Positions 2,759 through 15,630 of a stretch of 15,630 bases of DNA are shown piece after piece. The position numbers and the translations under genes were made by a program. The stretch lies in NCBI GenBank assembly GCA_031281115.1, contig JAITFV010000059.1, positions 1 to 15,630 of the forward strand. Reading direction: 5' to 3'. The stretch comes from Oscillospiraceae bacterium (GTDB lineage Bacteria; Bacillota; Clostridia; Oscillospirales; Ruminococcaceae). Every line of letters begins with the position of its first letter. The stretch's first letter is position 1. The notes below the pieces were generated by a model that was not told the DNA's origin, did not search any database, and saw nothing but the letters and a program-made list of their open reading frames with translations.

Positions 2759-3916
2759 ATGTTTTGTCCGGAATGTGGTTTCAACGCTAAAGGTAGGAAG
2801 TTTTGCTCTGGGTGCGGGTATAATCTATTTGAGGAGCAAGAATCTGCTCAAAAGGAGCAAGTGTCTGCTCAAAAAGAACAAATGTCTGCTCAAAAGGAGC
2901 AAGTGCAAGAATTACAGGAAGTACAGCAAGAATTTTCGTCAAGGCAAATTAAAGTATTCGGTATGAAATATTGGTACATAATTGACGGTAACGCTATCAC
3001 TATCACTGTAAATAAAACAGGAAAAGAATTTTACAAGGGTGAAATTGATTCTATACAGGTGCTTTCATTTAAGAAAAATAAATTATCTGCGGGTGAATTT
3101 CATTTTACTGGCGAGGGGATAAAGACTACAGGTGATATATTTGAAAAGCAAAACGAAGTCGGTTTTTTTGAATTAATTGAGTGCTTGACGGCTGTTAATC
3201 CATGCCTTAATTTGTCTTTTACGCAAGCAATGAATTATGATAGCAACAAGGAAAAATACAAAATCAATAATCTTGACGGAAAGCAAGCAGAGCAAGGAAG
3301 TTCAAAGGTTGAAAAAAAGCGTTCATCAAAAATTAAAACAGGGTGTTTATCGGTAGTAGTTATTTTATTTGTATTGATAATTATAATTGAAATTATTCCT
3401 GATAATACGGAAGAAACACCTATTGGAACAGGGATTTCACAAGAAAACAATGGTGAACAAGTAAGTACAGGAATTATAATTGATTTTGATACAAATTTAT
3501 TATTTAACAAATACGATATTAGAATTCTTGTAAACGGATTTCCGTTAGATATTCAAACACAAGGTGAAAAAGTATTATATGAATTTGCTTTATCAGAGGG
3601 TTTACACACGCTTACTCTTTCCGAAATCGGGAACGATAAAAACACAATAACAGAAACATTTGAAGTATTGGCGAATAATTATTATTTCTTCTTCATAAAG
3701 GCAGGGTGGAGCGGGATTGAAATTGAACGTAAAGATACCATGACACTTGATGAAGCGCAGTTATTTGTGGGTGATTTGTCACAGGTGGAAGCAAACACTG
3801 AGCCGTCAAATGTGATTGATAATAACAGATTTAATGATTCGGACTACATAAGACACCCTGGTAAGATTGAAGAAAAACACAATAGCCCTCAAACCCTCTA
3901 TTTATCGACATTATAG
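2759..3916 (+). CDS. Zinc-ribbon single-pass membrane protein, 3' end probably replaced by the inserted element
   Basis: The 385-aa protein begins with a zinc ribbon (C3, C6, C16, C19), followed by a Glu/Gln-rich stretch with three SAQKEQV/M heptads (29-49). A beta-rich cytoplasmic region at about 62-155 resembles PH-like domains. After a basic stretch comes one membrane helix (194-213) and an extracytoplasmic beta-rich domain (about 238-325). It resembles zinc-ribbon plus membrane proteins of unknown, possibly envelope-sensing, function common in Firmicutes. AAGGAGG sits 5 nt before the ATG. No terminator follows the stop. Codons from about 371 on (EEKHNSPQTLYLSTL) lie past the proposed insertion point and are probably element-derived. 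The ancestral end would read EAKKT-stop, now at 15559-15576. Function unknown. Confidence 0.8.
   Translation: MFCPECGFNAKGRKFCSGCGYNLFEEQESAQKEQVSAQKEQMSAQKEQVQELQEVQQEFSSRQIKVFGMKYWYIIDGNAITITVNKTGKEFYKGEIDSIQVLSFKKNKLSAGEFHFTGEGIKTTGDIFEKQNEVGFFELIECLTAVNPCLNLSFTQAMNYDSNKEKYKINNLDGKQAEQGSSKVEKKRSSKIKTGCLSVVVILFVLIIIIEIIPDNTEETPIGTGISQENNGEQVSTGIIIDFDTNLLFNKYDIRILVNGFPLDIQTQGEKVLYEFALSEGLHTLTLSEIGNDKNTITETFEVLANNYYFFFIKAGWSGIEIERKDTMTLDEAQLFVGDLSQVEANTEPSNVIDNNRFNDSDYIRHPGKIEEKHNSPQTLYLSTL
2843..2905 (+). repeat. Three tandem 21-bp repeats encoding SAQKEQ-V/M heptads
   Basis: Three units start at 2843, 2864 and 2885. The first and third are identical and the second differs at a few bases. 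They encode a charged heptad linker between the zinc ribbon and the rest of the protein. Such tracts change copy number easily. Confidence 0.85.
3868..3872 (+). other. Candidate left attachment core (TGAAG, GA dinucleotide)
   Basis: TGAAG here matches TGAAG at 15558-15562, and both are followed by A-rich sequence (GAAAAA and GCAAAAAA). It lies inside the 3' end of the zinc-ribbon gene. The call rests on the gene-end reconstruction rather than on repeat length. Confidence 0.45.
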
Positions 3917-3938
3917 CGTATTTTTTGCGATTTGTCAA
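3910..3938 (-). promoter_or_regulatory. Outward-facing perfect consensus promoter at the element's left end
   Basis: On the minus strand TTGACA (3938-3933), a 17-bp spacer and TATAAT (3915-3910). In the integrated state it fires leftward, antisense to the zinc-ribbon gene. In a circularised element it would cross the joint and read into the 52-aa gene and the recombinase after a leader of roughly 100 nt. Confidence 0.75.
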
Positions 3939-3968
3939 GGTTTTTTGAAAAGTTCCGCTTTTTATCCC

Positions 3969-4037
3969 TGTCAAGGGTAGGTGTGGAGATTTTTTCGCCC
4001 ATATTTTAAAGCGAAAAAATACTACCCGACCTTGACA
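3969..4037. repeat. 69-bp imperfect palindrome near the left end
   Basis: TGTCAAGG (3969-3976) pairs with CCTTGACA (4030-4037), GGTAG with CTACC, and ATTTTTTCGC (3989-3998) with GCGAAAAAAT (4011-4020). A further direct TGTCAAGG at 3933-3940 forms the -35 of the outward promoter. Possible binding site for a recombinase, accessory factor or regulator. Confidence 0.6.
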
Positions 4038-4058
4038 ACGCACCATAAATTATAATTG

Positions 4059-4097
4059 AAAAAGGGTAATCCCTTACCGCAGTGAGGGATTGCCCTT
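4059..4097 (-). terminator. Intrinsic terminator downstream of the coupling-protein gene
   Basis: Read on the minus strand, AAGGGCAATCCCT (4097-4085) pairs with AGGGATTACCCTT (4074-4062) with a single wobble and continues into TTT. It lies about 33 bp past the stop of the coupling protein and closes the minus-strand mobilization operon. Confidence 0.75.
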
Positions 4098-4129
4098 ATC
4101 AGCAAAAAATTATTAATTCGCACTTGTTA

Positions 4130-6001
4130 TCAATTCATAAACAGCCACATAAGAAATGCCCCCGCTCCCATTGAAAAGCCGATTATGGCTAAAAACAGAA
4201 CGTATTTTCTAATTTTGCGCCATACAGGTAAAAATTTAACTCTGAATATTTTAACTTTATTTTTTATTTGCTTTGTTTTAATGCTTAGTGATTCGGCATG
4301 GAATAAGTCACCGCCCGCGAAAACCTTATCCACCCTGCAAAAGCCCTCGGGTGTCATTAAAACTATGTCTTTCAGCTTCGCTAAGTCGTGCGGGAAAATA
4401 ATAGGCTCACGGTGCTTGCTCCAGTGGCTACCCCTGCTCGTTTCGATTCCCTCATCAGAATCATATTGAACCCCTCGGCTTTCTTTCTCGATTTCACAGC
4501 TTCCAATAAGATTACTGAAATAACGCTGACTATCCGCGTCCGTTACCCCTAAAATCGCCTTATAAGGGCAGTTGTCAACGATTGCCCGCCGTGCTTTCTC
4601 GCCGTAGATTTCGTCAAGCTGTGCAAGGCTCTGCACCATAATGCAGATTGTCACTTTTTTGCTTCTCAAGGTTGCAAGCGCGGATTTTATGGCTTCGATT
4701 TTTCCTAACCTCGGAAATTCGTCTAATAATATCAATATCGGCGGTAATGCCTTGCCCTGCTCTGTGTAAAAATCTGCTCGTCTTTCAAGATGTCGGATAA
4801 GCTGGTTAAGTTTTAATAAAATATCCGCGCTCCATTGGTCTAATTTATGTTCGGGATAATTCAAAAAGATGTTAAAATCATCAATCATATTCCAATTAAA
4901 GCTGTTATCTTCATCACCGTCCCGCAATGAATCTTTAATTAATAAGTCGGTGGCGAAAACCATGATTTTATTACTTAATTCCGTGGCGATTCCCGCCAGT
5001 GTCTTTAACTCCAAATCCCGCACTTGATTTATAAACATCTTGGCGGGTGTGTTTTCGCTTTCTAAAATTTCTTCGATTAGCTTATCAACCGCCGTTGTTT
5101 GTATGCCTGTCATGGCTTCGCTGAAACTCGCGCCTAAATCGTAGTAATACAGAATCGCGCCTGTAAGTAAATTTTGCGCTGATTGCACCCAAAACGGCTC
5201 GTTAATACTCGCAGGGATAGGAATAATCGACAAAGCCATTTCACGCGCATTTTGCACCACATAATCAGCCCCGCCTGTTCGCAGGGAATAAAAAGGGTCG
5301 TAACCGTGACCGTCTTTCCTCGCGGGGCAGAAAACAATAGATTTTCTCCCTACTTTCCCCGCTTCGGATAGTTGTTTATAATACTCCGATAACTCGCCTT
5401 TTATATCAGTCGCAACTATAGGGGCTTTCCATGCTTCAAGTACGTTTTTGGCAATACAGGCACTTTTCCCGCTCCCTGCACCGCCTACAACTAATATATG
5501 TCCGTCTTTGTCTGTTGGCTTTCCGACAAAGAAACTTTTCTGCTTTTTCCATTTATTTATTTTTGCACCAAAGAAAAAACCAACACCCCATAATTCGCTT
5601 TTTTTCATAAAAGCAGGGATATTATTTCCCTCGCGTTCGGGTCGATAATTTACGTTAAAAATAGATTTGATAAATCGCGTAAAAATATTATCGGGCATAG
5701 CTTTATAAAATCGGTAACAGTTAAGCGCGAAAAGTGAAAAGGTAATAACAAGGCAACCGATAAAAAGAAACACGTCTAAATGCTTCCACTCATAAGCAAA
5801 AAACGGATTATATGTGATTGATATTTTGTAAGGCATATAAAAAACCAACATCACCCATGCGCCTGTAAAAATCAGCAGAAAGCCCAATAGCTTATTGAAA
5901 AACCTAAATAATAATTTTAACCCGCCTGTCAGCGTTGTAATCATTTTCCCGCTCAAAAATTTTACCCCCTGTTTGATTTTATCGCGATAAATCGCGGTCA
6001 T
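4130..6001 (-). CDS. VirD4/TraG-family type IV coupling protein
   Basis: Coupling proteins are membrane ATPases that hand the relaxase-DNA complex to a type IV secretion channel. From the ATG at 6001 the protein has 623 aa. It shows two N-terminal membrane helices (about 38-58 and 76-96), Walker A GGAGSGKS (173-180), Walker B LILLDEFPRLG (423-433) with D427-E428, and the downstream VQSLAQLDEIYG typical of TraG/VirD4. A third hydrophobic helix at 599-620 sits at the extreme C-terminus, which is unusual for the family. The frame stays open upstream to 6304, but that part only overlaps the relaxase gene. The ATG at 6001 overlaps the relaxase stop by about 23 nt. A TTG at 5953 with a G-rich stretch before it is another possible start. 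No VirB partners are present. Confidence 0.9.
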   Translation of the reverse strand: MTAIYRDKIKQGVKFLSGKMITTLTGGLKLLFRFFNKLLGFLLIFTGAWVMLVFYMPYKISITYNPFFAYEWKHLDVFLFIGCLVITFSLFALNCYRFYKAMPDNIFTRFIKSIFNVNYRPEREGNNIPAFMKKSELWGVGFFFGAKINKWKKQKSFFVGKPTDKDGHILVVGGAGSGKSACIAKNVLEAWKAPIVATDIKGELSEYYKQLSEAGKVGRKSIVFCPARKDGHGYDPFYSLRTGGADYVVQNAREMALSIIPIPASINEPFWVQSAQNLLTGAILYYYDLGASFSEAMTGIQTTAVDKLIEEILESENTPAKMFINQVRDLELKTLAGIATELSNKIMVFATDLLIKDSLRDGDEDNSFNWNMIDDFNIFLNYPEHKLDQWSADILLKLNQLIRHLERRADFYTEQGKALPPILILLDEFPRLGKIEAIKSALATLRSKKVTICIMVQSLAQLDEIYGEKARRAIVDNCPYKAILGVTDADSQRYFSNLIGSCEIEKESRGVQYDSDEGIETSRGSHWSKHREPIIFPHDLAKLKDIVLMTPEGFCRVDKVFAGGDLFHAESLSIKTKQIKNKVKIFRVKFLPVWRKIRKYVLFLAIIGFSMGAGAFLMWLFMN

Positions 6002-6824
6002 TGTCGCGGGTTCGGTTTCTGCTCTGCTCCCGCTCTTTTTGTCTGCGCCGTTCCCATTCCTGTCGCTGTATGTTGCGCTTGATAATTTCCCTGTTTCTGT
6101 CGCCCTGCTCGGTGCGTATTCCCCGCCGTTCAAGTGCGGTGTTTTTATGCCCCATGTGCAGGGTCGGCTCGTTTTTAATTCCTCGTTTTGTGTGGCTCTC
6201 ATGCGATACTCTTTCAGATAAACCTTTCTTTTCAAATTCCTTGTTTTGTACTTTCGCCCAATTTTCCCGCCATAAATGCACGTACTTTCTTTTGTCATAT
6301 TCACGGAAAACAGTTTTACTTTTCAAAAATCCTTTTTCATTAATCGGGCGGGTCGTAAGTAAAATATGCGCGTGAGGATTATTTTTGTGAATAATTCTGT
6401 CGTGCTTTGCTCCTTCGTGTTCTTCATCTTTTCTGTGGCGGTGTCCGCTGTGAATGGAAATATCCGCACACATTCCGCGTTTAACAAAATTATCGTTCAC
6501 ATAATTACGCACTAATTTTATTTGCTCGTCCTTGTTTAATTCGCGGGGTAATGCTATCTCGATTTCCCGCGCCGTTCTTGCGTTCTTACCCCGCTCCGCT
6601 TTTTCTACCGCGTTCCACAAAGTTTGGCGGTTGTAAAATTCTTGCGGTGCATTTTCGGGGAGTAAAATTTCTGTGAAATTAATTCCGCGCTTATCTGCAT
6701 AATCGTGAGTTAAGCCGTCATGTTCATTGTAAAGTTTTTCGCCCGCTCGGTAAGCAGAAGCACCCACGGCAGAACGCCCCTGTCCTCGGCTGACATACTT
6801 TACTGACAGATGATATATAGCCAT
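5979..6824 (-). CDS. mobA: MobA/MobL-family (MOBQ) relaxase
   Basis: The relaxase nicks oriT and stays bound to the 5' end to pilot DNA transfer. The ATG at 6824 gives 281 aa beginning MAIYHLSVKYVSRGQGRSAV, the standard N-terminus of the family, followed by ASAYRAGEKL (22-31). The histidine metal-binding motif is NPHAHILLTTRPI (149-161). Further family strings are LWRENWAKVQN (184-194) and the Pro-Thr-Leu-His-Met-Gly segment near 220-226. The tail beyond 230 is highly charged (Arg/Glu). The protein is short because it is essentially the nicking domain plus tail, with no primase or helicase domain. The frame is open to 6911, but that stretch overlaps palindromes and lacks family sequence. No clear ribosome site precedes 6824. 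It overlaps and is probably co-transcribed with the coupling protein. Confidence 0.9.
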   Translation of the reverse strand: MAIYHLSVKYVSRGQGRSAVGASAYRAGEKLYNEHDGLTHDYADKRGINFTEILLPENAPQEFYNRQTLWNAVEKAERGKNARTAREIEIALPRELNKDEQIKLVRNYVNDNFVKRGMCADISIHSGHRHRKDEEHEGAKHDRIIHKNNPHAHILLTTRPINEKGFLKSKTVFREYDKRKYVHLWRENWAKVQNKEFEKKGLSERVSHESHTKRGIKNEPTLHMGHKNTALERRGIRTEQGDRNREIIKRNIQRQEWERRRQKEREQSRNRTRDNDRDLSR

Positions 6825-6870
6825 AAAAAAATATATTCTTGTTATGCGATAAAAATACCGCTCCGATAAA

Positions 6871-6891
6871 AAATGCGTTATTAACGCATTT
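6871..6891 (-). terminator. Palindrome resembling an intrinsic terminator in the relaxase leader
   Basis: Arms AAATGCGTTA and TAACGCATTT are perfect with one central base. On the minus strand they run into a T stretch, 47 bp before the relaxase ATG. This may limit or attenuate relaxase expression, or end a transcript arriving from the right. Confidence 0.5.
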
Positions 6892-6892
6892 G

Positions 6893-6910
6893 TGCCTTGC
6901 TTGCAAGGCA
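6893..6910. repeat. Palindrome TGCCTTGC-TT-GCAAGGCA
   Basis: Perfect 8-bp arms around TT lie between the oriT core and the relaxase gene, next to the terminator-like palindrome. It may belong to the oriT region or to a relaxase-leader switch. Confidence 0.6.
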
Positions 6911-6930
6911 TAGCCCTACGCAGTAGCGCA

Positions 6931-6967
6931 CTACGTTTTCAAAGAAAATGTGTAAGTGCGCCCTTAC
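6931..6967 (+). other. oriT: Candidate oriT with RSF1010-type nic core
   Basis: TAAGTGCGCCCT at 6953-6964 equals the nic core of RSF1010/R1162-type MOBQ origins as I remember it, where the relaxase cuts between TAAGTGCG and CCCT (here 6960/6961). Just 5' is the expected inverted repeat, ACGTTTTC (6933-6940), AAA loop and GAAAATGT (6944-6951), with one G-T wobble. GTAAG/CTTAC (6952-6956, 6963-6967) also brackets the core. The site lies about 130 bp upstream of the MOBQ relaxase start, the usual arrangement. Transfer would lead with the 6961-rightward DNA. Confidence 0.75.
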
Positions 6968-6980
6968 TTCGTGCGGGAAT

Positions 6981-7010
6981 TTGCTGAAACTTATAACCTT
7001 GTGGTATAAT
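6981..7010 (+). promoter_or_regulatory. Promoter of the 118-aa mobilization-type gene
   Basis: TTGCTG (6981-6986), an 18-bp spacer and TATAAT (7005-7010), about 50 bp before the start at 7061 and next to oriT. Confidence 0.55.
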
Positions 7011-7060
7011 TCGATATAGTTTGTAATAGATATGTTAGTAAAAAAGGTATGGTGATAATT

Positions 7061-7417
7061 ATGCCGTCCATGACATTAGATGAACGCATTAAGCGTGAAA
7101 CAGAAAAACTTGAACAGTTGAAACAGCAAAAACGCTCACTGGAAGCGCGGGAAAAAGAAAAAGAACGCGCAACCGATACCCGCCGTAAAATTATAGCGGG
7201 TGCGATTCTGCTTGACGTTTTTCCGCAGTTTCAAATATTAGAACCAAAAAGAAAAAAAGCGGAAAATCTCAAAGAATTTTCCCCGCTTGCTAACTTCTTA
7301 AAAAATATAGCAGATAATAAAGAGCTGACCGCACAGCTTGAAAAAAATACCGAGCAGAAAACGAACGCTCCCGCCCCGCCCAAGATTGAGCAGGGCGAAA
7401 ACGATTCGCAAAGTTAG
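7061..7417 (+). CDS. Small TraD/MobC-like mobilization accessory protein
   Basis: This 118-aa charged protein opens with MPSMTLDERIKRETEKLEQL, a predicted coiled coil to about residue 45. It continues with ATDTRRKIIAGAILLDVFP, which resembles the R-x-x-DTRRKI-x-x-G core of TraD/MobC-type accessory proteins of MOBQ systems. Its location beside oriT and opposite the relaxase supports a role in relaxosome assembly, by inference. I prefer the ATG at 7061, preceded by GGTGAT, over the ATG at 7049, because the paralogue at 8025 starts at the matching point after a similar GGTGAT site. The tail is Lys/Glu/Asn-rich and low complexity. No experimental family is certain. Confidence 0.7.
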   Translation: MPSMTLDERIKRETEKLEQLKQQKRSLEAREKEKERATDTRRKIIAGAILLDVFPQFQILEPKRKKAENLKEFSPLANFLKNIADNKELTAQLEKNTEQKTNAPAPPKIEQGENDSQS

Positions 7418-7484
7418 CTTTTTCCTGTTCTGATTTTTCACAAAAAATTAAAGAACTGCTGAAAAAGTAACTTTAAAATATAGC

Positions 7485-7513
7485 ATGATACACTATGATG
7501 TACTTTTTGTCAA
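7485..7513 (-). promoter_or_regulatory. Minus-strand promoter, twin of the SprT-gene promoter
   Basis: TTGACA (7513-7508), a 17-bp spacer and TATCAT (7490-7485). It shares the 17-mer GCATGATACACTATGAT (7483-7499) with the promoter at 9094-9122. It would transcribe leftward, antisense to the 7061-7417 gene and on toward oriT and the relaxase. Confidence 0.6.
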
Positions 7514-7522
7514 CAGGCAAAA

Positions 7523-7762
7523 TTATTCCAGTAAATTATCTAAGTCAATATATGCGGGTACAGGGATAATGCCAAACATATAATCAAACTTGCTCTCCCC
7601 CCATTGGCTTAATAAATATTCCTCGGCTGATTCTCTGCTCGGAAATAACATCAACGTGCCGTCGTCGCGACGTTCAAATTCAAGCGGTTCTTTCAATTCC
7701 TCGTCAGAAACATAGCATATCGCTATTGTTGGTCTTATTTCATTATAATTTTTTTTGCTCAT
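7523..7762 (-). CDS. Small acidic hypothetical protein (79 aa)
   Basis: The protein is not recognised. It has 79 aa, starts MSKKNYNEIRPTIAICYVSDEE and ends PAYIDLDNLLE. It is acidic with a mixed alpha/beta pattern and no membrane segment or signal peptide. AAAGG lies 6 nt before the ATG, which supports real translation. It stands alone on the minus strand between the two paralogous plus-strand mobilization-type genes, and it diverges from 8025-8294 across a large palindrome. A regulatory or host-interference role is possible for such small acidic proteins on mobile elements, but nothing in the sequence shows it. Confidence 0.65.
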   Translation of the reverse strand: MSKKNYNEIRPTIAICYVSDEELKEPLEFERRDDGTLMLFPSRESAEEYLLSQWGESKFDYMFGIIPVPAYIDLDNLLE

Positions 7763-7807
7763 GATAAACCTTTCTATGAGCTAATTTATATTGTAGCGAT
7801 TTTCATG

Positions 7808-7920
7808 TTCGCTTTTTATTGATTTACCCCGCTTAGAAAAATCAAAATCAAGACCGCGAGTTTACGAGCGTTTATTTAGTCTTGAATTTGAATTTTTGCG
7901 GGGTATATTCAAAAAGCGAA
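7808..7920. repeat. 113-bp imperfect inverted repeat between divergent genes
   Basis: The left arm (7808-7854) and right arm (7879-7920) pair over their whole length with interruptions. Outer TTCGCTTTTT pairs with AAAAAGCGAA, ACCCCGC with GCGGGGT, and inner TCAAGAC with GTCTTGA. A 24-nt loop contains CGAG-TTTA-CGAG. No gene lies in 7763-8024. It could form a long RNA hairpin or a single-strand DNA structure during transfer. Confidence 0.7.
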
Positions 7921-8024
7921 TAAAAGAAAAACGCGGAAATATTTTAGCGAATTACAAAAAGCATGAGTAAAAATTGATACTAATAATACGATAAAGCACA
8001 TAAGTATATATTGAGGTGATTATT

Positions 8025-8294
8025 TTGAAAACATTAGATAAAAGAATAGACGATAAAAAGCGCAGGGGGGATTCACGTAAAATAATTATCGGTGATATTT
8101 TTCTTAATTTTTTCCCTGAATTTGGAAAAATAAAAGTACGAAAAACTGTTGAAGAAAATGAAGCGGTTTTTGAAGATGTGTACAACCTTATAGGAAACAT
8201 TGCGTATGAAAAAGCATTAGAAGAATGGGAAAAAGAAAAAAAGGGAGAAAAGCCAAAACATGAAGATTATTATGTTGAACCATACCCTTTTTAA
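8025..8294 (+). CDS. Second small TraD/MobC-like protein, paralogue of the 7061 gene
   Basis: The 89-aa protein begins MKTLDKRIDDKKRRGDSRKI at a TTG, with GAGGTGAT ideally spaced before it. The GTG at 8016 lies inside that ribosome site. It aligns with the product of 7061-7417: TLDKRID with TLDERIK, DSRKIIIGDIFLNFFPEF with DTRRKIIAGAILLDVFPQF. It lacks most of the N-terminal coiled coil and has a different tail (EDYYVEPYPF). A mobilization accessory role is inferred from the paralogue and context. Its stop codon lies inside a perfect 36-bp palindrome. Confidence 0.7.
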   Translation: MKTLDKRIDDKKRRGDSRKIIIGDIFLNFFPEFGKIKVRKTVEENEAVFEDVYNLIGNIAYEKALEEWEKEKKGEKPKHEDYYVEPYPF

Positions 8295-8316
8295 TTTACA
8301 AATTAAAAAGGGTATG
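8281..8316. repeat. 36-bp palindrome over the stop of the 8025 gene
   Basis: Seventeen-base arms (8281-8297 and 8300-8316) are exact reverse complements around a 2-nt centre. The TAA at 8292-8294 is in the left arm. No T-tract follows on the plus strand, so if it terminates transcription it is not canonical. It may be a 3'-end stabiliser. Confidence 0.7.
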
Positions 8317-8334
8317 AGTAAAAAAATTAAACAG

Positions 8335-8377
8335 AAAAAAGCCCCACGCTTGCCGACAACTCGGCATAGCATGGGGC
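8335..8377 (-). terminator. Intrinsic terminator of the SprT-like gene
   Basis: On the minus strand a GC-rich hairpin (8377-8341) with arms GCCCCATGCTATGCCGA and TCGGCAAGCGTGGGGC, one bulge and one mismatch, is followed by six T residues (8340-8335). It sits 20 bp after the SprT stop. Confidence 0.9.
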
Positions 8378-8380
8378 GAT

Positions 8381-8399
8381 TTTGAAAGTTAAGTTTCAA
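8381..8399. repeat. Repeat copy TTTGAAAGTTAAGTTTCAA at the SprT 3' end
   Basis: This exact 19-mer recurs at 13794-13812, at the 3' end of the recombinase gene. A variant with longer perfect arms lies at 9062-9093. The SprT TGA stop (8398-8396) is inside it. Confidence 0.75.
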
Positions 8400-9028
8400 G
8401 ATGTCTGCATGAGAATTTCACAGTCGGCGCATTGTATGTTGACTTCCTTTGTCGCTCGGACTGTTACCCCGCAATCGGGGCAAATGTACTTTCTGCTTGA
8501 TTGTCTGCTCCCGCCTGTGCGTGTTTGGTTGGTGTCGGCTCTGACAAGACGAAAAGCGTCCTCGTCAATGCTGATTGACGTGATTAGCTTTTCGGTGTCC
8601 TCGGAAAGTGCCGTGTCGCTCCAACCGTATTTTGCATGGTGCTTGACTGTTAAACCGTGAGCGGTTGCAGTGTCGCGGAAAGTAGTATTATGATAAGTGT
8701 TTCCCCTGCTACAATCCCGCTTGCCGTTTTGCAAATTAAAAAGATGAACCATTTCGTGCATTAACGTGTCGATTATTTCAATAATCGGCAAGTGCAGAAA
8801 TTCAGCGACAATAGTTATTTCGTAGAAATATTTTTTGTCGGTTTCGTCCGATTTATCCCGCCAAATTTTCTGCGTGGTACACCACCCTAAAGCGTTTTTA
8901 TGCTTGCCTTTCGACTGCACAACAATTACAGGGGTTTCAAGTTTCCCGCCGTAAAAATGTTTATTCAACAGCTTAAACAGGCGGTATAATTCGGACAGCG
9001 TTTTTTCAAGGGTCGGGGTCGTTTTCAT
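8396..9028 (-). CDS. SprT-like zinc metalloprotein
   Basis: The 210-aa protein has a SprT-like fold pattern. An N-terminal helix with ELYRLFKLLNKHFYGGKLE (13-31) is followed by strands, HEMVH (91-95) as the zinc-binding active-site motif, and H113 in TYHNTTF as the likely third ligand. A C-terminal zinc ribbon uses C183, C186, C200 and C203. Eukaryotic relatives (Spartan) cleave DNA-protein crosslinks. The bacterial mobile-element versions have no known substrate, but removing proteins attached to DNA, such as relaxase adducts, is a reasonable inference. AGGAAG lies 9 nt before the ATG. It has its own promoter (9094-9122) and a strong terminator, so it is a monocistronic unit. Confidence 0.85.
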   Translation of the reverse strand: MKTTPTLEKTLSELYRLFKLLNKHFYGGKLETPVIVVQSKGKHKNALGWCTTQKIWRDKSDETDKKYFYEITIVAEFLHLPIIEIIDTLMHEMVHLFNLQNGKRDCSRGNTYHNTTFRDTATAHGLTVKHHAKYGWSDTALSEDTEKLITSISIDEDAFRLVRADTNQTRTGGSRQSSRKYICPDCGVTVRATKEVNIQCADCEILMQTS

Positions 9029-9061
9029 TGTGTTTCACTTCCTTTACTTTTTAATTAAAGA

Positions 9062-9093
9062 GCCGATTTTGAAAATTAACTTTCAAAATCGGC
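9062..9093. repeat. Perfect 13-bp inverted repeat upstream of the SprT-like gene
   Basis: Arms GCCGATTTTGAAA (9062-9074) and TTTCAAAATCGGC (9081-9093) surround ATTAAC. It lies in the expected 5' leader, directly beside the -10 of the SprT promoter, so it could act as an operator or a leader hairpin. Its core is a variant of the 19-mer at 8381 and 13794. Confidence 0.8.
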
Positions 9094-9122
9094 ATGATAC
9101 ACTATGATACAGAAAATGTCAA
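9094..9122 (-). promoter_or_regulatory. Promoter of the SprT-like gene
   Basis: TTGACA (9122-9117), a 17-bp spacer and TATCAT (9099-9094). It shares its -10 and part of its spacer exactly with the promoter at 7485-7513. Confidence 0.75.
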
Positions 9123-9496
9123 GTTATAATTTCTGTGTATTTTTTAACATTAGAAAATTCGGGTAATATTCGGGTGTCGGTGGGTAAGAAAACCCCTAAA
9201 GGGGTTGAAGCGTTCTAAAAACGCTGTCGATAACATAATTCCGTTTTCTCTCGGTTTTATCGGTCTGTCCGCTATTCCACCTACCGCCTGTGTGCAGTAG
9301 TAGGGAGTGCCGTTCGGTCAGCTACGGTGCTACTCGCCCTATGAAGCCTTTAGACCCTGCAAAAACGCTGTTATTCGTTCTGCCGTATGGTATAAGTCCC
9401 CTCATGTATGGGTTTCACATCTTCTTTTATATCCCGCCGAGTTTAGCGGTTTTTCATTAAAAACAAACTGTGTGAAAAGGCTACATGATTGCCCGA

Positions 9497-9524
9497 TTGA
9501 CAATAGCATAAAATATGTTATTAT
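9497..9524 (+). promoter_or_regulatory. Possible plus-strand promoter opposing the candidate RNA
   Basis: TTGACA (9497-9502), a 16-bp spacer and TATTAT (9519-9524). No plus-strand gene follows. Transcription from here would meet the GC-rich hairpin and then run antisense to the XRE gene. Confidence 0.45.
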
Positions 9525-9544
9525 CTATGTCAGTGTTATTTTTA

Positions 9545-9570
9545 ATGCCCTCGCCGTGAAGCGGGGGCAT
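9545..9570. repeat. GC-rich hairpin between the XRE gene and the candidate RNA
   Basis: ATGCCCTCGC (9545-9554) pairs with GCGGGGGCAT (9561-9570) with one T-G wobble and a CGTGAA loop. No T-tract follows on either strand. It is either the 5' hairpin of the candidate RNA or a weak terminator for the XRE gene. Confidence 0.65.
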
Positions 9571-9575
9571 TTACT

Positions 9576-9604
9576 ATGTTATGTCATTTTTATGAATTTG
9601 TCAA
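9576..9604 (-). promoter_or_regulatory. Minus-strand promoter overlapping the XRE gene end
   Basis: TTGACA (9604-9599), a 17-bp spacer and TAACAT (9581-9576). It predicts a start near 9569, at the GC-rich hairpin. The 14-mer ATTTGTCAAGGTTT (9596-9609) is also present at the outward left-end promoter (3930-3943). Confidence 0.5.
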
Positions 9605-11071
9605 GGTTTCCAACGCTTCACGCAGAACTTTCAATGTATCAGTCTTGGAATAAACTAAGTCAGAATCAACCGCATTTACTAAAAAATCATGAAATGCTGC
9701 AACTATACTCGATTCACCAATTTTAATAGTGCTAATATCAGCGGTTTTGCCGTCAACAGGCGAACCGATTACAAGGTTCATGTGAGAGTTTGGGAATACA
9801 TCAGTATAAAAACAACTCGGCACTTTTATATTAGATGTGTTAATCGTCCTGTAAAGTATGGAATCATTTTCCGTGTCTGTAATCATCTTCTTTATAACCT
9901 CTGCACGTTCGGGCGGTGTACAAGTTCGGAAAAACCCTTCCATGATTGTTTCAATTATACCCTTGCGGACAAACAAATCAAAACCATCAAGGGTGAAAAA
10001 AGACGGTGTGTTGCCTTTATCGGCTAACTTTCGTAACCCACTGCCTAACATGGTTATTACTTCAATCATCTGCTCTCGGCTTGGCAATCCGTGCGGGATA
10101 TGTGCTTCTAAAACCTCTTTGTTGTAATAAACCGCAACGCAAGGGTGTGAACCGAATCCCGAAATGCCTGTTGCTCCCGATTTTTCAATATCGCCGTAAA
10201 ACATGATACTATCTTCTAAAGATTCCACGTAGCCGATTAATGGTTGTGCCTTATGTTTCATATCGTCAAAAATCTTGTTATAACATTCTATAATCTCTGC
10301 ATTTCTGAAAATAATCGCCGTTTGCAAATCAATCGTAAACGCAGTAACGCAATCATGCGTAATAAGGAAATAGGGTGTTGCAACGGTCGGAACGTATTTT
10401 ACAGGAAATGCCGAGTATAAATAATACGCGGTGAAGCTCCCGCCTGCTTTCATGATGAACGGCATTAACGCACCGATAACATCAAGATTGCTGTTGCGTT
10501 TTTCTTTTACAATCTCGTTCTTTTTAGAAAACTCAAAAAGACATTCAATTTTCAATGCGGGATTTTTGCAATATTTCAAGAAAAGATTATTATAAAAGAA
10601 ATTATAATCACGGGGTATGATAAAACGGACACAGGGATTTTTATAAAAATCGGCTTCTCTTGAAAGTAAACTTTCAAGTGCGTGATTAACGGATAACTCG
10701 CCGTTAATAACTTCGGTTTCTCTTCTGCTTTCATCAGCTTTTTCTTTTATTTGAAAGTTATTTTTCATAGGTGTAGAAAGTTGTTGAACCTCACACATTC
10801 TGTCAATTAAACGCTTGACTTGAATACGCTGATTATATAAAAACTCTCCGTCCTTGCTGATTTTATAAGCTGTTAAAAGCTCGTCCTTTTCAAAAGGTGA
10901 AATTGAAAGCGCGTTAATCAGACTTTGAAAATTTTCCTCGCTCGGAATACTGCCCTGCGATATTATTTTATGAATATATGTCCGTCCAATCCCCGAACTT
11001 TGCGAAAGCTGATAGATTTTTATGTTGTTGTTCTCTATACATTTTTTCAGAACATCGCCAAAAAGCACCAC
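9590..11071 (-). CDS. XRE-type helix-turn-helix regulator with large unknown C-terminal domain
   Basis: The 493-aa protein has an N-terminal HTH of the XRE/Cro type at about 3-68 (QLSQSSGIGRTYIHKIISQG holds the turn and recognition helix). A C-terminal portion of more than 350 residues follows that I cannot assign. That portion has no clear membrane helix and no catalytic motif I recognise, and it may be a ligand-sensing or oligomerisation domain. The GTG start at 11071 is preceded by GGAGGAG at 6 nt. The gene diverges from the secreted LRR gene at 11246. A TTGTAA-18 bp-TATAAT promoter (11137-11108) fits it. By position it is the likely regulator of the LRR cargo and perhaps of itself. Confidence 0.75.
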   Translation of the reverse strand: MVLFGDVLKKCIENNNIKIYQLSQSSGIGRTYIHKIISQGSIPSEENFQSLINALSISPFEKDELLTAYKISKDGEFLYNQRIQVKRLIDRMCEVQQLSTPMKNNFQIKEKADESRRETEVINGELSVNHALESLLSREADFYKNPCVRFIIPRDYNFFYNNLFLKYCKNPALKIECLFEFSKKNEIVKEKRNSNLDVIGALMPFIMKAGGSFTAYYLYSAFPVKYVPTVATPYFLITHDCVTAFTIDLQTAIIFRNAEIIECYNKIFDDMKHKAQPLIGYVESLEDSIMFYGDIEKSGATGISGFGSHPCVAVYYNKEVLEAHIPHGLPSREQMIEVITMLGSGLRKLADKGNTPSFFTLDGFDLFVRKGIIETIMEGFFRTCTPPERAEVIKKMITDTENDSILYRTINTSNIKVPSCFYTDVFPNSHMNLVIGSPVDGKTADISTIKIGESSIVAAFHDFLVNAVDSDLVYSKTDTLKVLREALETLTNS

Positions 11072-11107
11072 GGCAAACTCCTCCTATTTTTCATCAAATC
11101 TCTGCTC

Positions 11108-11137
11108 ATTATACCACAAAGAGCCATTGAATTACAA
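11108..11137 (-). promoter_or_regulatory. Promoter of the XRE regulator
   Basis: TTGTAA (11137-11132), an 18-bp spacer and TATAAT (11113-11108). The -35 overlaps the inverted-repeat half-site CAATATGT (11135-11142). Confidence 0.65.
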
Positions 11138-11185
11138 TATGTTACAAAAAATATTTTTTTCGGTGACATTGGCGGTTACATATTG
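11135..11185. promoter_or_regulatory. Candidate operator: CAATATGT ... ACATATTG
   Basis: CAATATGT (11135-11142) and ACATATTG (11178-11185) are exact reverse complements 35 bp apart. One overlaps the -35 of the XRE promoter and the other touches the -35 of the LRR promoter. This spacing would suit coordinated or looped repression by the XRE protein. Inferred from position only. Confidence 0.45.
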
Positions 11186-11212
11186 AAAGGTAGGTTTTTC
11201 CTCTGCTATAAT
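11183..11212 (+). promoter_or_regulatory. Promoter of the LRR surface-protein gene
   Basis: TTGAAA (11183-11188), an 18-bp spacer and TATAAT (11207-11212), followed by AGGAGG at 11232-11237, 8 nt before the TTG start at 11246. Confidence 0.75.
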
Positions 11213-11245
11213 TATCCTTGAATAAATTTATAGGAGGACAAAAGA

Positions 11246-13732
11246 TTGAAAAAGAGGATTTTTTCAGCTTTTTTAGCAATTTCATTAGCATTGACTTTAA
11301 TCGCGGGGGTTTCCGCCGTGGAAGTACCCCCCACGTTCCCCACACCCGCAGGTTTCAACGACAACGATTATCAGAAACTTGTCGCGTTTGCCTTGCAGTA
11401 TGATAATTTAGATAAGTTGGGGTGGGATTTGGAATCGCCTGAATCATTATATGGAGTTACATGGAATAACGAAACAGAAAAAAGGGTAACAAAAATTGAA
11501 CTTTATGGTAGTGAATTAGAGGTTTCACTTGAGGGTTCTCTTGATTTATCAGATTTTACCGCGCTCACATCATTACTCATTACCAAAGGCTTTATTAGCG
11601 ATTATTTAATTTCTGAACTTAATTTGTCAAATTGCACCGCGCTCACATCATTGCTTATTAGTAGCCGTTTAATATCTGAAATTGATTTAACAGATAATAC
11701 CTCGCTTATATCATTAAATATTAGCGGTGAATCAATTTCCGAACTTGACTTGTCAAAAAATACCGCACTTACAACATTAGCTATTGGTGGGTCTTCTATT
11801 TCTGAACTTGATTTATCTGAAAACACCGCGCTTACAGCATTATTTGTAGGTAATGACCCATTTATTACCAATCTTGATTTATCTCAAAATATCGCTCTTA
11901 AAACTTTAGAAATCAATGGAACGGGTGACGAGGGTGTCATATTAAAAGAAATAAATATATCAAATAACACCGCACTCGAAAGACTTGTAATAAACTATAT
12001 ATGTCTTGAAAAGATAGATGTAACAAACAACACCGCACTTAAAGGTTTGAGCATTTCAAGTAATAAGGTTAAAGAGATTGATGTATCGAACAACATCGCA
12101 CTTGAATGGCTGCATGTAAACGATAATCTTTTAACCGAAATTGACACATCAAATAATATTTTACTTCATGAATTATTTATACAAAACAATCTTATTTCTG
12201 AAATTGATTTATCAAAAAATATTGCACTTGAATGGTTAAATGCAGGATTAACAGCAATCACCGATATTGATTTATCTAATAATTTGCTTTTAAAATTTTT
12301 ATGGTTTTCATGGAGTGGTTTAACAGATATATCTGCTTTTGATAATTTAGAGAACTTACAGTCTGCACAGGTTTTGTATAATTTTCTTGATTTAGAATGT
12401 TCTGATGTGCTTACTTCTATTGAAGCAATACAGGAAACCGTTGATAAAAACGGCGGTCATTTTTGGTACGAAACACAAGGCAGAACAATAGATAGAAATA
12501 CACTGATTGATTTTAAAGACGGCAAAGTCAGTGTAAATATTGTACTTGCCAACGGACGAATAATCGAAATCGACCCTGCTCGAATTACTTCTGAAGCGCG
12601 GGAAACGGATTTGAATATTGATATTCAAATTACAAGTCAAGGGAATCAAGTGTCGGGTGTACCCGCAAATAGTATAGTTATCCGCCCGTTTGACCACGGC
12701 GAGTTTGGTTTTGAAATTAGCTTTGTGCTTTCAGCAGAGGAGCTTGAAGAAGCAGGGCTAAACGGCAATAGTGCGCGGTTATGGCACATTGACGATGACG
12801 GCAAGGTCGTAGAGGACGGCAGGGTAACGCGCAATAATGACGGCTCGGTGACAATCGGAATAACCCGCGCTTCGTATTATGTAATGTCCGAGGACGAACC
12901 CGCGGGCGGGAATAATCAGGGTGAGGACGATTGCGATAATTGCGGCAAATTCCCCTGTGAATGTGAAAATAAGCCCGAGCCTTGCAAAGACTGCGAGAAA
13001 GACCCCTGCGAGTGCGAAAAAGCTCACGATTGCGCTGCCCTCGGTCACAAATTCGGCGCGTGGAAAACTACGGTAACGGCAACAACAGCGCGTGAGGGTT
13101 CTCGTGAGCGGATTTGCGAAGTTTGTGAACATAAAGAAACTGAAACAATCGCGAGATTAACAGGTGGGGGTAATACTGGCGGCGGCGGCAGCGGTGGCGG
13201 CGGGGGCGGTGGTTCGTCCACGACAGACACACCGACAACCCCGACCATAGCTGTAACAACAGGCACGGCTACATGGGCGGTTACGAGTATTCCGCGCACA
13301 GCCTTAACCGCTCTCGGTCTTAGCACGAATATTCCAGTTAATCAACTTCGCGTACCAACAGGCGCGACAGGCAACACAACCGTGAGTGTTGGCGCGAGTT
13401 TCGCGGGTCAAAACGCGGTTTTAGTGAAATTCAACGCAGAAACACAACAACTTGAATTTGTTTCTGCTTCCACGGTCAGCGCAAACGGTAACGCGAGTAT
13501 AAATATTACTCAAACGGGCGATTTCCTTGTGCTGACGTTCAAGACTGGCGATATAACGGGAACTGGCGAGGTGCAAACGGCTGACGCGCTCGCGGTGCTT
13601 CGTGATGTCGCGGGGATTTCAAAGCTGAACAGCATACAAACATTCGTTGCGAACGGCGGGAAAGGCGATATAGGCACAAATAACGCGCTTGATATTCTAA
13701 GGCTCGTTGCAGGGATTATTGATAAGATTTAA
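11246..13732 (+). CDS. Secreted leucine-rich-repeat protein with Cys-rich region and degenerate dockerin-like tail
   Basis: The 828-aa protein starts at a TTG with a good AGGAGG. A signal peptide (1-24, cleavage near VSA) is followed by leucine-rich repeats at about 97-375, each close to NTAL-x-x-L-x-I with ISELDLS. A beta-rich domain (about 410-548) comes next. Then there is a cysteine-rich stretch with repeated C-x-x-C and PCEC (563-590), and a C-x-x-C-H module (596-636) of a kind common in Clostridia surface proteins. A Gly-rich linker (639-657) and a beta domain lead to a C-terminal pair of dockerin-like segments (GDITGTGEVQTADALAVLRDVAGI and a second around 807-825). The calcium loops are degenerate, so cohesin binding is unproven. 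It is probably surface-attached cargo. Base composition changes sharply from AT-rich in the LRR half to GC-richer after about 12540. Confidence 0.85.
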   Translation: MKKRIFSAFLAISLALTLIAGVSAVEVPPTFPTPAGFNDNDYQKLVAFALQYDNLDKLGWDLESPESLYGVTWNNETEKRVTKIELYGSELEVSLEGSLDLSDFTALTSLLITKGFISDYLISELNLSNCTALTSLLISSRLISEIDLTDNTSLISLNISGESISELDLSKNTALTTLAIGGSSISELDLSENTALTALFVGNDPFITNLDLSQNIALKTLEINGTGDEGVILKEINISNNTALERLVINYICLEKIDVTNNTALKGLSISSNKVKEIDVSNNIALEWLHVNDNLLTEIDTSNNILLHELFIQNNLISEIDLSKNIALEWLNAGLTAITDIDLSNNLLLKFLWFSWSGLTDISAFDNLENLQSAQVLYNFLDLECSDVLTSIEAIQETVDKNGGHFWYETQGRTIDRNTLIDFKDGKVSVNIVLANGRIIEIDPARITSEARETDLNIDIQITSQGNQVSGVPANSIVIRPFDHGEFGFEISFVLSAEELEEAGLNGNSARLWHIDDDGKVVEDGRVTRNNDGSVTIGITRASYYVMSEDEPAGGNNQGEDDCDNCGKFPCECENKPEPCKDCEKDPCECEKAHDCAALGHKFGAWKTTVTATTAREGSRERICEVCEHKETETIARLTGGGNTGGGGSGGGGGGGSSTTDTPTTPTIAVTTGTATWAVTSIPRTALTALGLSTNIPVNQLRVPTGATGNTTVSVGASFAGQNAVLVKFNAETQQLEFVSASTVSANGNASINITQTGDFLVLTFKTGDITGTGEVQTADALAVLRDVAGISKLNSIQTFVANGGKGDIGTNNALDILRLVAGIIDKI

Positions 13733-13756
13733 TTTCTTTTGCTCCGTTTAATAGAA

Positions 13757-13790
13757 TCACCCGCCCTGCTTTTCACAGTGGGGCGGGTGA
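13757..13790. terminator. Bidirectional hairpin between convergent LRR and recombinase genes
   Basis: TCACCCGCCC (13757-13766) and GGGCGGGTGA (13781-13790) are exact complements with a 14-nt loop. T-tracts are weak on both sides, but the position between convergent stops supports a terminator role. Confidence 0.65.
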
Positions 13791-13793
13791 CTC

Positions 13794-13812
13794 TTTGAAA
13801 GTTAAGTTTCAA
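13794..13812. repeat. Repeat copy TTTGAAAGTTAAGTTTCAA at the recombinase 3' end
   Basis: Identical over 19 nt to 8381-8399. It begins just after the recombinase stop and lies beside the convergent hairpin. Confidence 0.75.
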
Positions 13813-13814
13813 AA

Positions 13815-15335
13815 TCAAGCATAGTTAAATTCAACGCTGTCAATATTCACAGAGCTTGAATTGTAGCTCTGTTTTTCAACGGTGATAATGATTTTTTTTA
13901 CAAATCTTCGTAAAAATATCATTTTTTCCGTGTTGGTTAAGTAGTTCCAGTTTTCTTTGAGGTTCAAAATAACATCTTCATTTATTATTTTTGGCGTGAT
14001 TTTCAAGTTTGATAATTTTGTTTTTTTGCGTTGCAATTCATCTTCAAGTTTTTCAAAGTTTTTGTTAAATTTCTTGATTAAAATTTTATACTCGTCATAC
14101 TCAATAGCACCTTGTACATACTGCTCCATTACTTGATTTTTGCGGGTTTGTAAATTTTTCAACTTCTTTTCACAGGCAACAATGCTTTTTAATAATTCCT
14201 GTTCTGCGCTGTTTGCGGTTTCGATTGCGATAAGGTCTGCGGTTTCCGTGATGTCGTTTATATTTTGTATGTACTCGCAAAAAGCAATTTCAACTTTCCA
14301 GTGTGTTATGTTTGGGTTTGTGCATTGATTTATACTGCGGTCTTTTCTTGTTCGGCAAATGTACGACGATTTATAATTTTTGTCACTTTTAGCGGTTTTA
14401 TAGGTGTAATTCTGCGTAGTGAATTTACAACCGCACCGCCCACAGTACAGCACACCGCAAAAATAACTCCTTTCTTTGGGTAGTTTTGTCCTTGTGTGGC
14501 TTGTTGTGCTTTCTATGCGTTGCTGTGTATCTCGGAAAACTTCATCAGAAATAATAGGTTCGTGCTGTCCGTCTGCGGTAAAATATCTGCTTTTATCTTC
14601 CATTGCATAGCGCACTTTTCCTATGTAGGTAGGGTTTACAAGTATTGCCCTTATGGTTGCAGAACCCCACGACACGCCCGTTTTTGTCGGAATTTCCCGC
14701 AGGTTTAATTCCTGTGCAATTCTATTCATCGAATAGTTTTGATAAGCATACAGCGAAAATATTTCTTTTATGATTTCGGCTTCTTCAAGGTGTACATTCT
14801 GTACCCTTTGTTTAGGCTCTTTGTAATAACCGTAGCTTATAGAGTGGTTAGCTATGGTGTAGCCCTCTTTTACCTTGCGTTCAAGCCCCATTTTAACCCT
14901 TGCGATTAAATTCTCACGTTCAAACTCAGCGAATATGCCTATGATTTTTAAAAACATTCTACCGCTTGGGCTGTCGGTGTCTATGCTCTCGGTTAAGCTG
15001 TTGAAAGTACAATTATATTCCTCGAATAACTCCACCAATTCAAGCAGATTTTTTGTACTGCGTGTAAGGCGGTCAACCTTGAACACTAAAACATTGTTTA
15101 TTTTCCCGCTCTCTACGTCTGCCATAAGGCGGTTAATCGCAGGGCGGTCAACAATATTTTTCCCGCTTATGCCCTCGTCAGCGTAAATATCGTATATGTC
15201 CCACTCTTTGAGTAAAGCATAAGTTTTTAACTTTTCCATTTGCCCACGGATTGAAAAGCCCTCTTGTGCTTGTTCCTCGGTGGAAACTCGGACATAAATT
15301 CCCGTGCTTAAACTTTTTTTTGAAATTGCTTTCAA
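13815..15335 (-). CDS. Large serine recombinase (TnpX/TndX-type integrase)
   Basis: The 506-aa enzyme would excise and insert the element through a 2-bp staggered cut and covalent seryl-DNA links. The catalytic domain starts YVRVSTEEQ with nucleophile Ser18. It has FSIRGQ, ADEGISGK (52-59), and the KVDRLTRS arginines (R89, R92), ending near FAEFERE. A recombinase domain (about 165-275) contains NPTYIGKVRY. A zinc ribbon uses C298, C301, C327 and C338, and a coiled coil (about 378-445) precedes the C-terminal tail. The length is typical of the family. The start is a TTG at 15335 that overlaps the stop of the 52-aa gene (TTGA), with AGGAG 9 nt upstream, so translation is probably coupled. The 3' end converges on the LRR gene. 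Confidence 0.93.
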   Translation of the reverse strand: MKAISKKSLSTGIYVRVSTEEQAQEGFSIRGQMEKLKTYALLKEWDIYDIYADEGISGKNIVDRPAINRLMADVESGKINNVLVFKVDRLTRSTKNLLELVELFEEYNCTFNSLTESIDTDSPSGRMFLKIIGIFAEFERENLIARVKMGLERKVKEGYTIANHSISYGYYKEPKQRVQNVHLEEAEIIKEIFSLYAYQNYSMNRIAQELNLREIPTKTGVSWGSATIRAILVNPTYIGKVRYAMEDKSRYFTADGQHEPIISDEVFRDTQQRIESTTSHTRTKLPKERSYFCGVLYCGRCGCKFTTQNYTYKTAKSDKNYKSSYICRTRKDRSINQCTNPNITHWKVEIAFCEYIQNINDITETADLIAIETANSAEQELLKSIVACEKKLKNLQTRKNQVMEQYVQGAIEYDEYKILIKKFNKNFEKLEDELQRKKTKLSNLKITPKIINEDVILNLKENWNYLTNTEKMIFLRRFVKKIIITVEKQSYNSSSVNIDSVEFNYA

Positions 15336-15490
15336 CTTTCATCACTCCTGTCTGAATTTTCAGATAGAGGGGTGATTTTTGCTTGCTTTTCACTTTTAAT
15401 TCTCGGTATGGAAGTGTCAAGAAAAAATTTTAACATCTGCTTTTGTAATTCTTGGGGTAATGTAATTTTAATTTTTTCTTGTTCTCTCAT
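15332..15490 (-). CDS. 52-aa protein translationally coupled to the recombinase
   Basis: The ATG at 15490 has GGAG 8 nt upstream. The product contains KIKITLPQELQKQMLKFFLD and is rich in Lys, Gln and Ser. It has a short strand-helix look reminiscent of small DNA-binding accessory proteins, but I do not recognise a family. The stop overlaps the recombinase TTG start. As the first gene inside the right end, it would be reached first by the circle-joint promoter. A recombination directionality factor or regulator is possible, by position only. Confidence 0.65.
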   Translation of the reverse strand: MREQEKIKITLPQELQKQMLKFFLDTSIPRIKSEKQAKITPLSENSDRSDES

Positions 15491-15557
15491 GTCAAAAACT
15501 CCAATATAAATAGTAATTTATCTATATTCAAAGTTCGGTTTGTCCTATACCTGAAAA

Positions 15558-15562
15558 TGAAG
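15558..15562 (+). other. Candidate right attachment core (TGAAG, GA dinucleotide)
   Basis: This matches 3868-3872. Joining GA at 3869-3870 to what follows 15560 gives codons E-A-K-K-T and then TAA (15574-15576) in the frame of the zinc-ribbon gene. Confidence 0.45.
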
Positions 15563-15574
15563 CAAAAAAGACGT

Positions 15575-15598
15575 AAAACCGCATTGTAATGCGGTTTT
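15575..15598. terminator. Bidirectional intrinsic terminator, probably the displaced end of the zinc-ribbon gene
   Basis: AAAACCGCATT (15575-15585) and AATGCGGTTTT (15588-15598) are perfect 11-bp arms. The TAA restored to the zinc-ribbon gene is at 15574-15576, directly at the stem. The 32 bases beyond, to the window end, are too short to assign. Confidence 0.7.
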
Positions 15599-15630
15599 AG
15601 CCTATTGCGTTTATCTTCAAAGTAGCTCTG

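Follow-up and report, generated by a model that had tools for sequence, protein, structure and literature searches.

We find it likely that an integrative mobilizable element (IME) of about 11.76 kb (3864–15624), carrying a large serine recombinase, is inserted in the middle of a gene for a zinc-ribbon membrane protein. The window, that is, the whole stretch of DNA analysed, is the entire contig C82 (15,630 bp) of a metagenome-type assembly with 333 contigs and an estimated completeness of 87%. The reading is directly supported by the left junction, by a pair of inverted-repeat arms and by gene content. The initial annotation had already recognised a serine-recombinase element of about 11.7 kb interrupting the zinc-ribbon gene, and this is borne out; both ends, the proposed GA core, the C-terminus assigned to the host protein and the role of a hairpin at the right end are revised here. 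The features of the window are as follows; C48 is another contig of the same genome (G000), where the left end occurs again beside sigK, and G118 and G053 are related genomes.

Left of ~3860: trpB- and trpA-like genes and a membrane protein (trp names from our reading of the translations)
2759–3862, + strand: 5′ part of the host gene (ORF), encoding zinc ribbon, membrane segment and extracellular domain and ending ...YIRHPG
3861–3863, unstranded: left crossover region GTA with the attL core within, from the ungapped C48 alignment from 3863 and the departure from sigK after GGT
3863–3916, + strand: tail of 17 residues that the element adds to the host protein, KIEEKHNSPQTLYLSTL-stop (reading frame; same DNA beside sigK in C48)
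3864–15624, unstranded: inserted element, ~11.76 kb, right end predicted
3867–3887, + strand: left inverted-repeat arm TTGAAGAAAAACACAATAGCC
3910–3938, − strand: consensus sigma-70 promoter TTGACA-17-TATAAT (12/12), reading outward across the left end
3953–4060, unstranded: mobilization-associated repeat, candidate oriT, with 79–85% copies at G000:C189 and G053:C14
4130–6304, − strand: VirD4/TraG-type coupling protein (PF02534, 7.5e-39)
5979–6911, − strand: MobA/MobL relaxase (PF03389, 1.2e-68)
9590–11071, − strand: HTH regulator-like protein (PF01381, 5.6e-6)
11246–13732, + strand: large cargo protein without Pfam match, with leucine-rich-like repeats and probably secreted (repeats and signal judged by eye)
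13815–15335, − strand: large serine recombinase (PF00239, 1.6e-40; PF07508, 1.8e-22; PF13408, 4.1e-8)
15332–15490, − strand: ORF of 52 aa immediately preceding the recombinase gene, candidate regulator or directionality factor
15574–15599, − strand: leftward-reading intrinsic terminator, within the element at its right end (perfect 12-bp inverted repeat; terminator scan; same order in G118)
15600–15620, + strand: right inverted-repeat arm GCCTATTGCGTTTATCTTCAA
15622–15624, unstranded: predicted right crossover region GTA with the attR core within, from G118-like arm spacing and the GTA shared with 3861–3863
15625–15630, + strand: last bases of the contig, which ends at 15630; the host gene is predicted to resume here

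The Pfam matches give the recombinase all three domains by which serine-recombinase IMEs are recognised (catalytic, recombinase and zinc-ribbon). A frame resembling the 52-aa ORF, for which a Pfam search returned no match, was also seen by eye upstream of the recombinases of relatives. As for secretion-system genes, a Pfam scan of 10 ORFs, with smaller ORFs outside it, recognised VirD4 only. An Rfam search of the window gave no match. The element is probably a further serine-recombinase IME, ordinary in kind, and its possible link with sporulation is the more interesting part.

The left junction is defined by the second copy. A DNA search with positions 3600–4200 detected it at the start of C48 (97% identity), and from 3863 on an ungapped alignment of the two left ends covers 306 positions, 10 of them mismatched. 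Past this copy, the C48 sequence codes for a little over 60 N-terminal residues of SigK (match to profile TIGR02846, 2–65). The host DNA of C48 follows sigK as far as TTGGT, after which it no longer agrees with the sister sequence GGTTGGTGGCTTTTATC of G053, in which sigK goes on past GGT as GGCTTTTATC; the nearest sister gene, that of G053, reads CATAATTTGCGGTTGGTGGCTTTTATC and C48 reads CATAATTTGCGGTTGGTAAGGCATG. C48 likewise departs from the codons for LV[AV][YF]IV, kept in 19/19 same-genus sigK genes fetched. Since sigK in C48 leaves both the sister sequence and the conserved codons after GGT, the element begins right after GGT, and by sequence equivalence with C48 the left junction in the window is placed directly after GGT 3860–3862. 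This is upstream of the GA core, of Tn4451/Tn5397 type, that had been proposed earlier with junctions at GA 3869–3870 and GA 15559–15560: the former is about 7 bp off and the latter about 62 bp off.

In C48 the left end alone is visible, and the recombinase of that copy lies outside the sequence seen. A search for its right end found no sigK 3′ half in the same genome (9 SigK-profile matches); two candidates, on contigs C241 and C76, were both read by eye as other sigma factors. The missing right end would be expected to show an arm followed by GT or GTA and by sigK sequence resembling GCTTTTATC. It may be added that 7 of the 10 mismatches between the two left ends cluster in a 9-nt patch (3866–3874), inside the arm and beside the crossover, which counts against our preferred explanation.

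The host ORF (2759–3916) does run into element sequence, as had been noted, judging from both the ORF itself and the C48 match, and its tail ...HNSPQTLYLSTL was correctly taken as element-encoded, the same DNA standing next to sigK in C48. The ORF gave no Pfam match. A protein search returned, besides the window's own entry, two partial homologues (P0002 and P0003), which share the common domain only, from residue 197/234 on, and then continue for 264 and 331 further residues; from residue 234 on, the host domain shares 63% identity with P0002 across 123 aa. Given these longer homologues, the gene is probably cut in mid-gene and not at its 3′ end, where the target had been placed. Because neither homologue has a zinc ribbon, the 3′ continuation of the window's gene is a prediction. 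A search of the same genome with P0002 for the 3′ part returned the window itself only, and no orthologue of the intact zinc-ribbon gene was detected in 149 relatives (11 matches with that of the same genome counted; lowest E value outside it, 6e-8). Two of the checks suggested by the initial annotation gave no empty site in the relatives' genomes and, as zinc-ribbon homologues, two partial and much longer proteins. A join at GTA would keep the frame open over the few bases available, as ...YIRHPGSS. With the corrected ends, the insertion would truncate the gene in its middle and add 17 foreign residues, which goes beyond a mere exchange of the C-terminus.

At the other end, the perfect hairpin at 15574–15599 is present, as reported. 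It had been read as the terminator of the host gene, but a terminator scan recognises it on the minus strand alone, and its tail CGTCTTTTTT points into the element. The minus-strand scan found 1 terminator against 0.1 expected, and no T-run follows the hairpin on the plus strand. Next to it lies the right arm, which matches the left arm (3867–3887) at 18 of 21 positions, a value reached by 0/500 shuffles. The arm is followed by GTAGCTCTG and then by the contig end. When arms were scored at the proposed right end, 3, 0 and 0 of 500 shuffles were as good (lengths 12, 16 and 21); at the end claimed earlier, which lacks the inverted-repeat arms that a serine-integrase end should have, the corresponding numbers were 495, 429 and 153.

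A related element in genome G118 provides a controlled comparison. A 57%-identical recombinase, together with a MobA/MobL relaxase and VirD4, is found there inside spoVFB, both gene halves being matched by the spoVFB profile (10–158 and 146–186). The intact dpaB (spoVFB) of G094, a genome of the same genus, shows NKKNVFFVPMYQDD; comparison with the G118 halves therefore puts the crossover in the T-run of GTGTTTTTTGTG. The arms CAGTTTTTTAT (18701–18711) and ATAAAAAACTG (9898–9908), separated from the crossover by 9 or 10 nt on its inner side, form a perfect 11-nt inverted repeat (11/11) reached by 1/500 shuffles; at longer lengths, 14/16 is reached by 0/500 shuffles, and at 21 nt the count is 10/500. 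In the predicted attP, the arms are 22 nt apart when the T's at the two junctions and in the gene are all counted. The G118 hairpin (18664–18692) lies inside the element, and the order is hairpin, inverted-repeat arm, crossover. This element (the second in the G118 region) is like that of the window in its recombinase, MobA/MobL relaxase, VirD4 and hairpin–arm–core order, but differs in arm and core sequence and in target. As a separate observation, G118 has a further serine recombinase between spoVFA and the interrupted spoVFB (L092:595–1608 and 7146–8687), and two adjacent elements may be present there.

A GTA core in the window leaves 23 nt between the 11-nt arm motifs, versus 22 nt in G118. 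The G118-like order of hairpin, arm and GTA, together with the direction of the terminator, therefore moves the right crossover outward by about 62 bp from the end first assigned, to GTA 15622–15624. As no empty site of the locus was found, we infer this right end by comparison, and since about 6 host bases remain beyond it, the right host side cannot be aligned. With a TA core the two arms are 10 and 11 nt away (9 and 12 with GT), which is not exactly symmetric. A pattern search of the same genome and of viral contigs revealed neither an empty site nor a circle joint, nor another right end; the exact arm patterns had 0 and 0 occurrences in viral contigs, and the last 20 bases, with 2 mismatches allowed, were found in the same genome in the window only.

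We also compared the right ends at 12 recombinase loci, the window and 11 relatives with 42–68% identical recombinases. The hairpins of the window, L056, L061 and L051 were surpassed by 0, 0, 0 and 5 of 100 shuffles, and six further loci were not significant (L058, L049, L053, L055, L060 and L059; 10 to 69 of 100). Low values in L054 (1/100) and L057 (0/100) were discarded as due to other repeats (sigK coding sequence; promoter-like repeat). By eye, hairpins can nevertheless be made out in L058, L054 and L055. By the shuffle test, then, a right-end hairpin is common, not universal, among the 12 right ends.

Other placements of the ends have to be weighed against this evidence. Agreement between the window and C48 is near perfect only from 3875 (3 mismatches in 3875–4168), and GTTT at 15609–15612 mirrors AAAC at 3875–3878, as might be expected if the crossover fell at the arm motif itself (GTTT-AT-AAAC) and the element ran from ~3875 to 15614. 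We consider this unlikely, however: sigK in C48 would then read LVRHEI in place of the LV[AV][YF]IV of the 19 same-genus genes, the two bases beside AAAC differ (AA in the window, AT in C48), and in G118 the crossover lies 9–10 nt outside the arm motif. An empty sigK of the strain reading GGTTGGTGGC or GGTTGGTAGC would be incompatible with it. Equally, the contig stops at 15630 with no host gene recognisable in its last bases, so that the element might continue past this point; but arm, hairpin and spacing match the completed G118 end, and the recombinase and its small upstream ORF adjoin the right end as they do in relatives, which makes a right end beyond the contig quite improbable. The GA-to-GA placement, with the host gene ending in EAKKT-stop and the hairpin as its terminator, is very improbable: it draws on TGAAG at both sides, on an in-frame stop beside a perfect hairpin and on GA being the core dinucleotide of Tn4451 and Tn5397, yet the ungapped C48 match extends to 3863, the T-run of the hairpin is on the element side with the equivalent G118 hairpin inside the element, the claimed end has no inverted arms, and the homologues are much longer. 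TGAAG at 15558 and the join yielding EAKKT-stop are present as described, but within chance expectation. TGAAG occurs 20 times on the plus strand, and 2 of the 19 occurrences outside 3800–3900 (the proposed site included) give a stop within 5 residues in that frame; GA sites joined in the same frame do so in 160 of 807 cases. With a stop at chance level and homologues of this length, EAKKT is not supported as the host C-terminus.

For the element ending at GTA, site-specific recombination can be envisaged as follows. The recombinase would join attP and attB at a short core inside GTA, attP consisting of two inverted arms (TTGAAGAwAAACrCAATAGsC) about 10–11 nt either side of the core; att sites of serine integrases are treated in PMC3783163. 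By cutting the core, the enzyme would release the element in circular form and insert it again at sites like TGGT(A/G)GC. The proposed ends predict an empty site in which 3862 is joined to 15625 onward, ...CACCCTGGTAGCTCTG..., and a circle joint reading ...TATTGCGTTTATCTTCAAAGTAAGATTGAAGAAAAACACAATAG.... Relaxase and VirD4 may act on oriT, with transfer in trans through the secretion channel of another, helper element. The candidate oriT repeat (3953–4060) has one copy just upstream of a MobA/MobL gene (G000:C189) and another just after a VirD4 gene (G053:C14). The leftward terminator beside the right end may shield the recombinase genes from transcription out of the flank. In the circle, the promoter at 3938–3910 would face this terminator and the recombinase genes; a promoter scan at a lax threshold counted 1, not above the 1.2 expected. 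The attP model (hairpin, arm, 22–23-nt centre) can be used to find the ends of related elements.

The right flanks of the 11 recombinase relatives include three named sporulation genes: spoVFB (G118), spoVFA (G003/L049; PF16924, 4.9e-21) and sigK (G094; TIGR02846, 3.5e-16). These matches are to gene pieces and so fall below the whole-protein cut-offs of NCBIfam models. C48 adds sigK, by the left end of the element only. The flank in G090 encodes a peptidoglycan-binding protein with a weak SleB match, the left half of whose gene was not found within 40 kb, and that in G094:C9 is feoB. A family search of the flanks in C125, G053 and C305 gave no family above cut-off; those of G136, C274 and G022 lay outside this search. 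Among 71 genomes of the genus and 394 of the order, no recombinase was nearer than those of C125 in the same genome (64%) and G003 (68%). A tentative and rather doubtful reading of these flanks is that mobilizable elements of this recombinase clade dock in sporulation genes (sigK, spoVFA, spoVFB and perhaps a SleB-like cell-wall gene), where they would be harmless in growth and spliced out in spore formation, the window copy being an escape to a secondary site that is similar to the one in sigK but outside the sporulation genes (TGGTAGCT versus TGGTGGCT). If true, such targeting would tie developmental gene splitting, already shown by skin, SPbeta and gin (phage-like and other elements), to conjugative mobilization.

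Like Tn4451-type IMEs, the element has one large serine recombinase and a mobilization gene, with no secretion-system genes recognised in it beyond VirD4. It differs from Tn4451, whose relaxase is of another type, in having a MobA/MobL relaxase with its own VirD4, a core in GTA and not GA, and relatives in sporulation genes. According to the part available of an IME review, Tn4451 recombines at 2 bp and serine-recombinase IMEs insert in dispensable genes; in its main text, to the same extent, the word ‘sporulation’ has 0 occurrences (PMC5704250). The skin elements of B. subtilis and C. difficile resemble the present case in that the sister left-end copy splits sigK, and in serine recombinase and inverted-repeat att sites, the latter described for C. 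difficile skin in sigK in the part available of PMC5025042. Skin elements are prophage-like, whereas the window element has a relaxase and coupling protein. The window copy itself lies in the zinc-ribbon gene and not in sigK, unlike skin; the C48 left-end copy alone is in sigK. The gin element in gerE of Bacillus cereus is a non-phage intervening element of 28.6 kb with a serine recombinase and three recombinases in all; the available part of that report mentions no relaxase (PMC5595907), and the window element has one. No relaxase-bearing element in sigK or another sporulation gene could be recognised from titles and the starts of abstracts in the open literature.

Further sporulation genes may be split as well. 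A gene that we read as sigG, with the SigK profile as the only model, appears to be split in G000:C177 (L112, L181) and G000:C149 (L115, L182), where its 5′ part may lie beside another serine recombinase. In 7 of 99 genomes the spoVFB profile matches pieces of the gene only, with two pieces in G004, G016, G033, G058 and G118 and the 3′ piece only in G021 and G022. In the stretches fetched from G058, G004, G033, G022 and G021, another type of serine recombinase accompanies the 3′ piece of spoVFB or the 3′ end of its gap.
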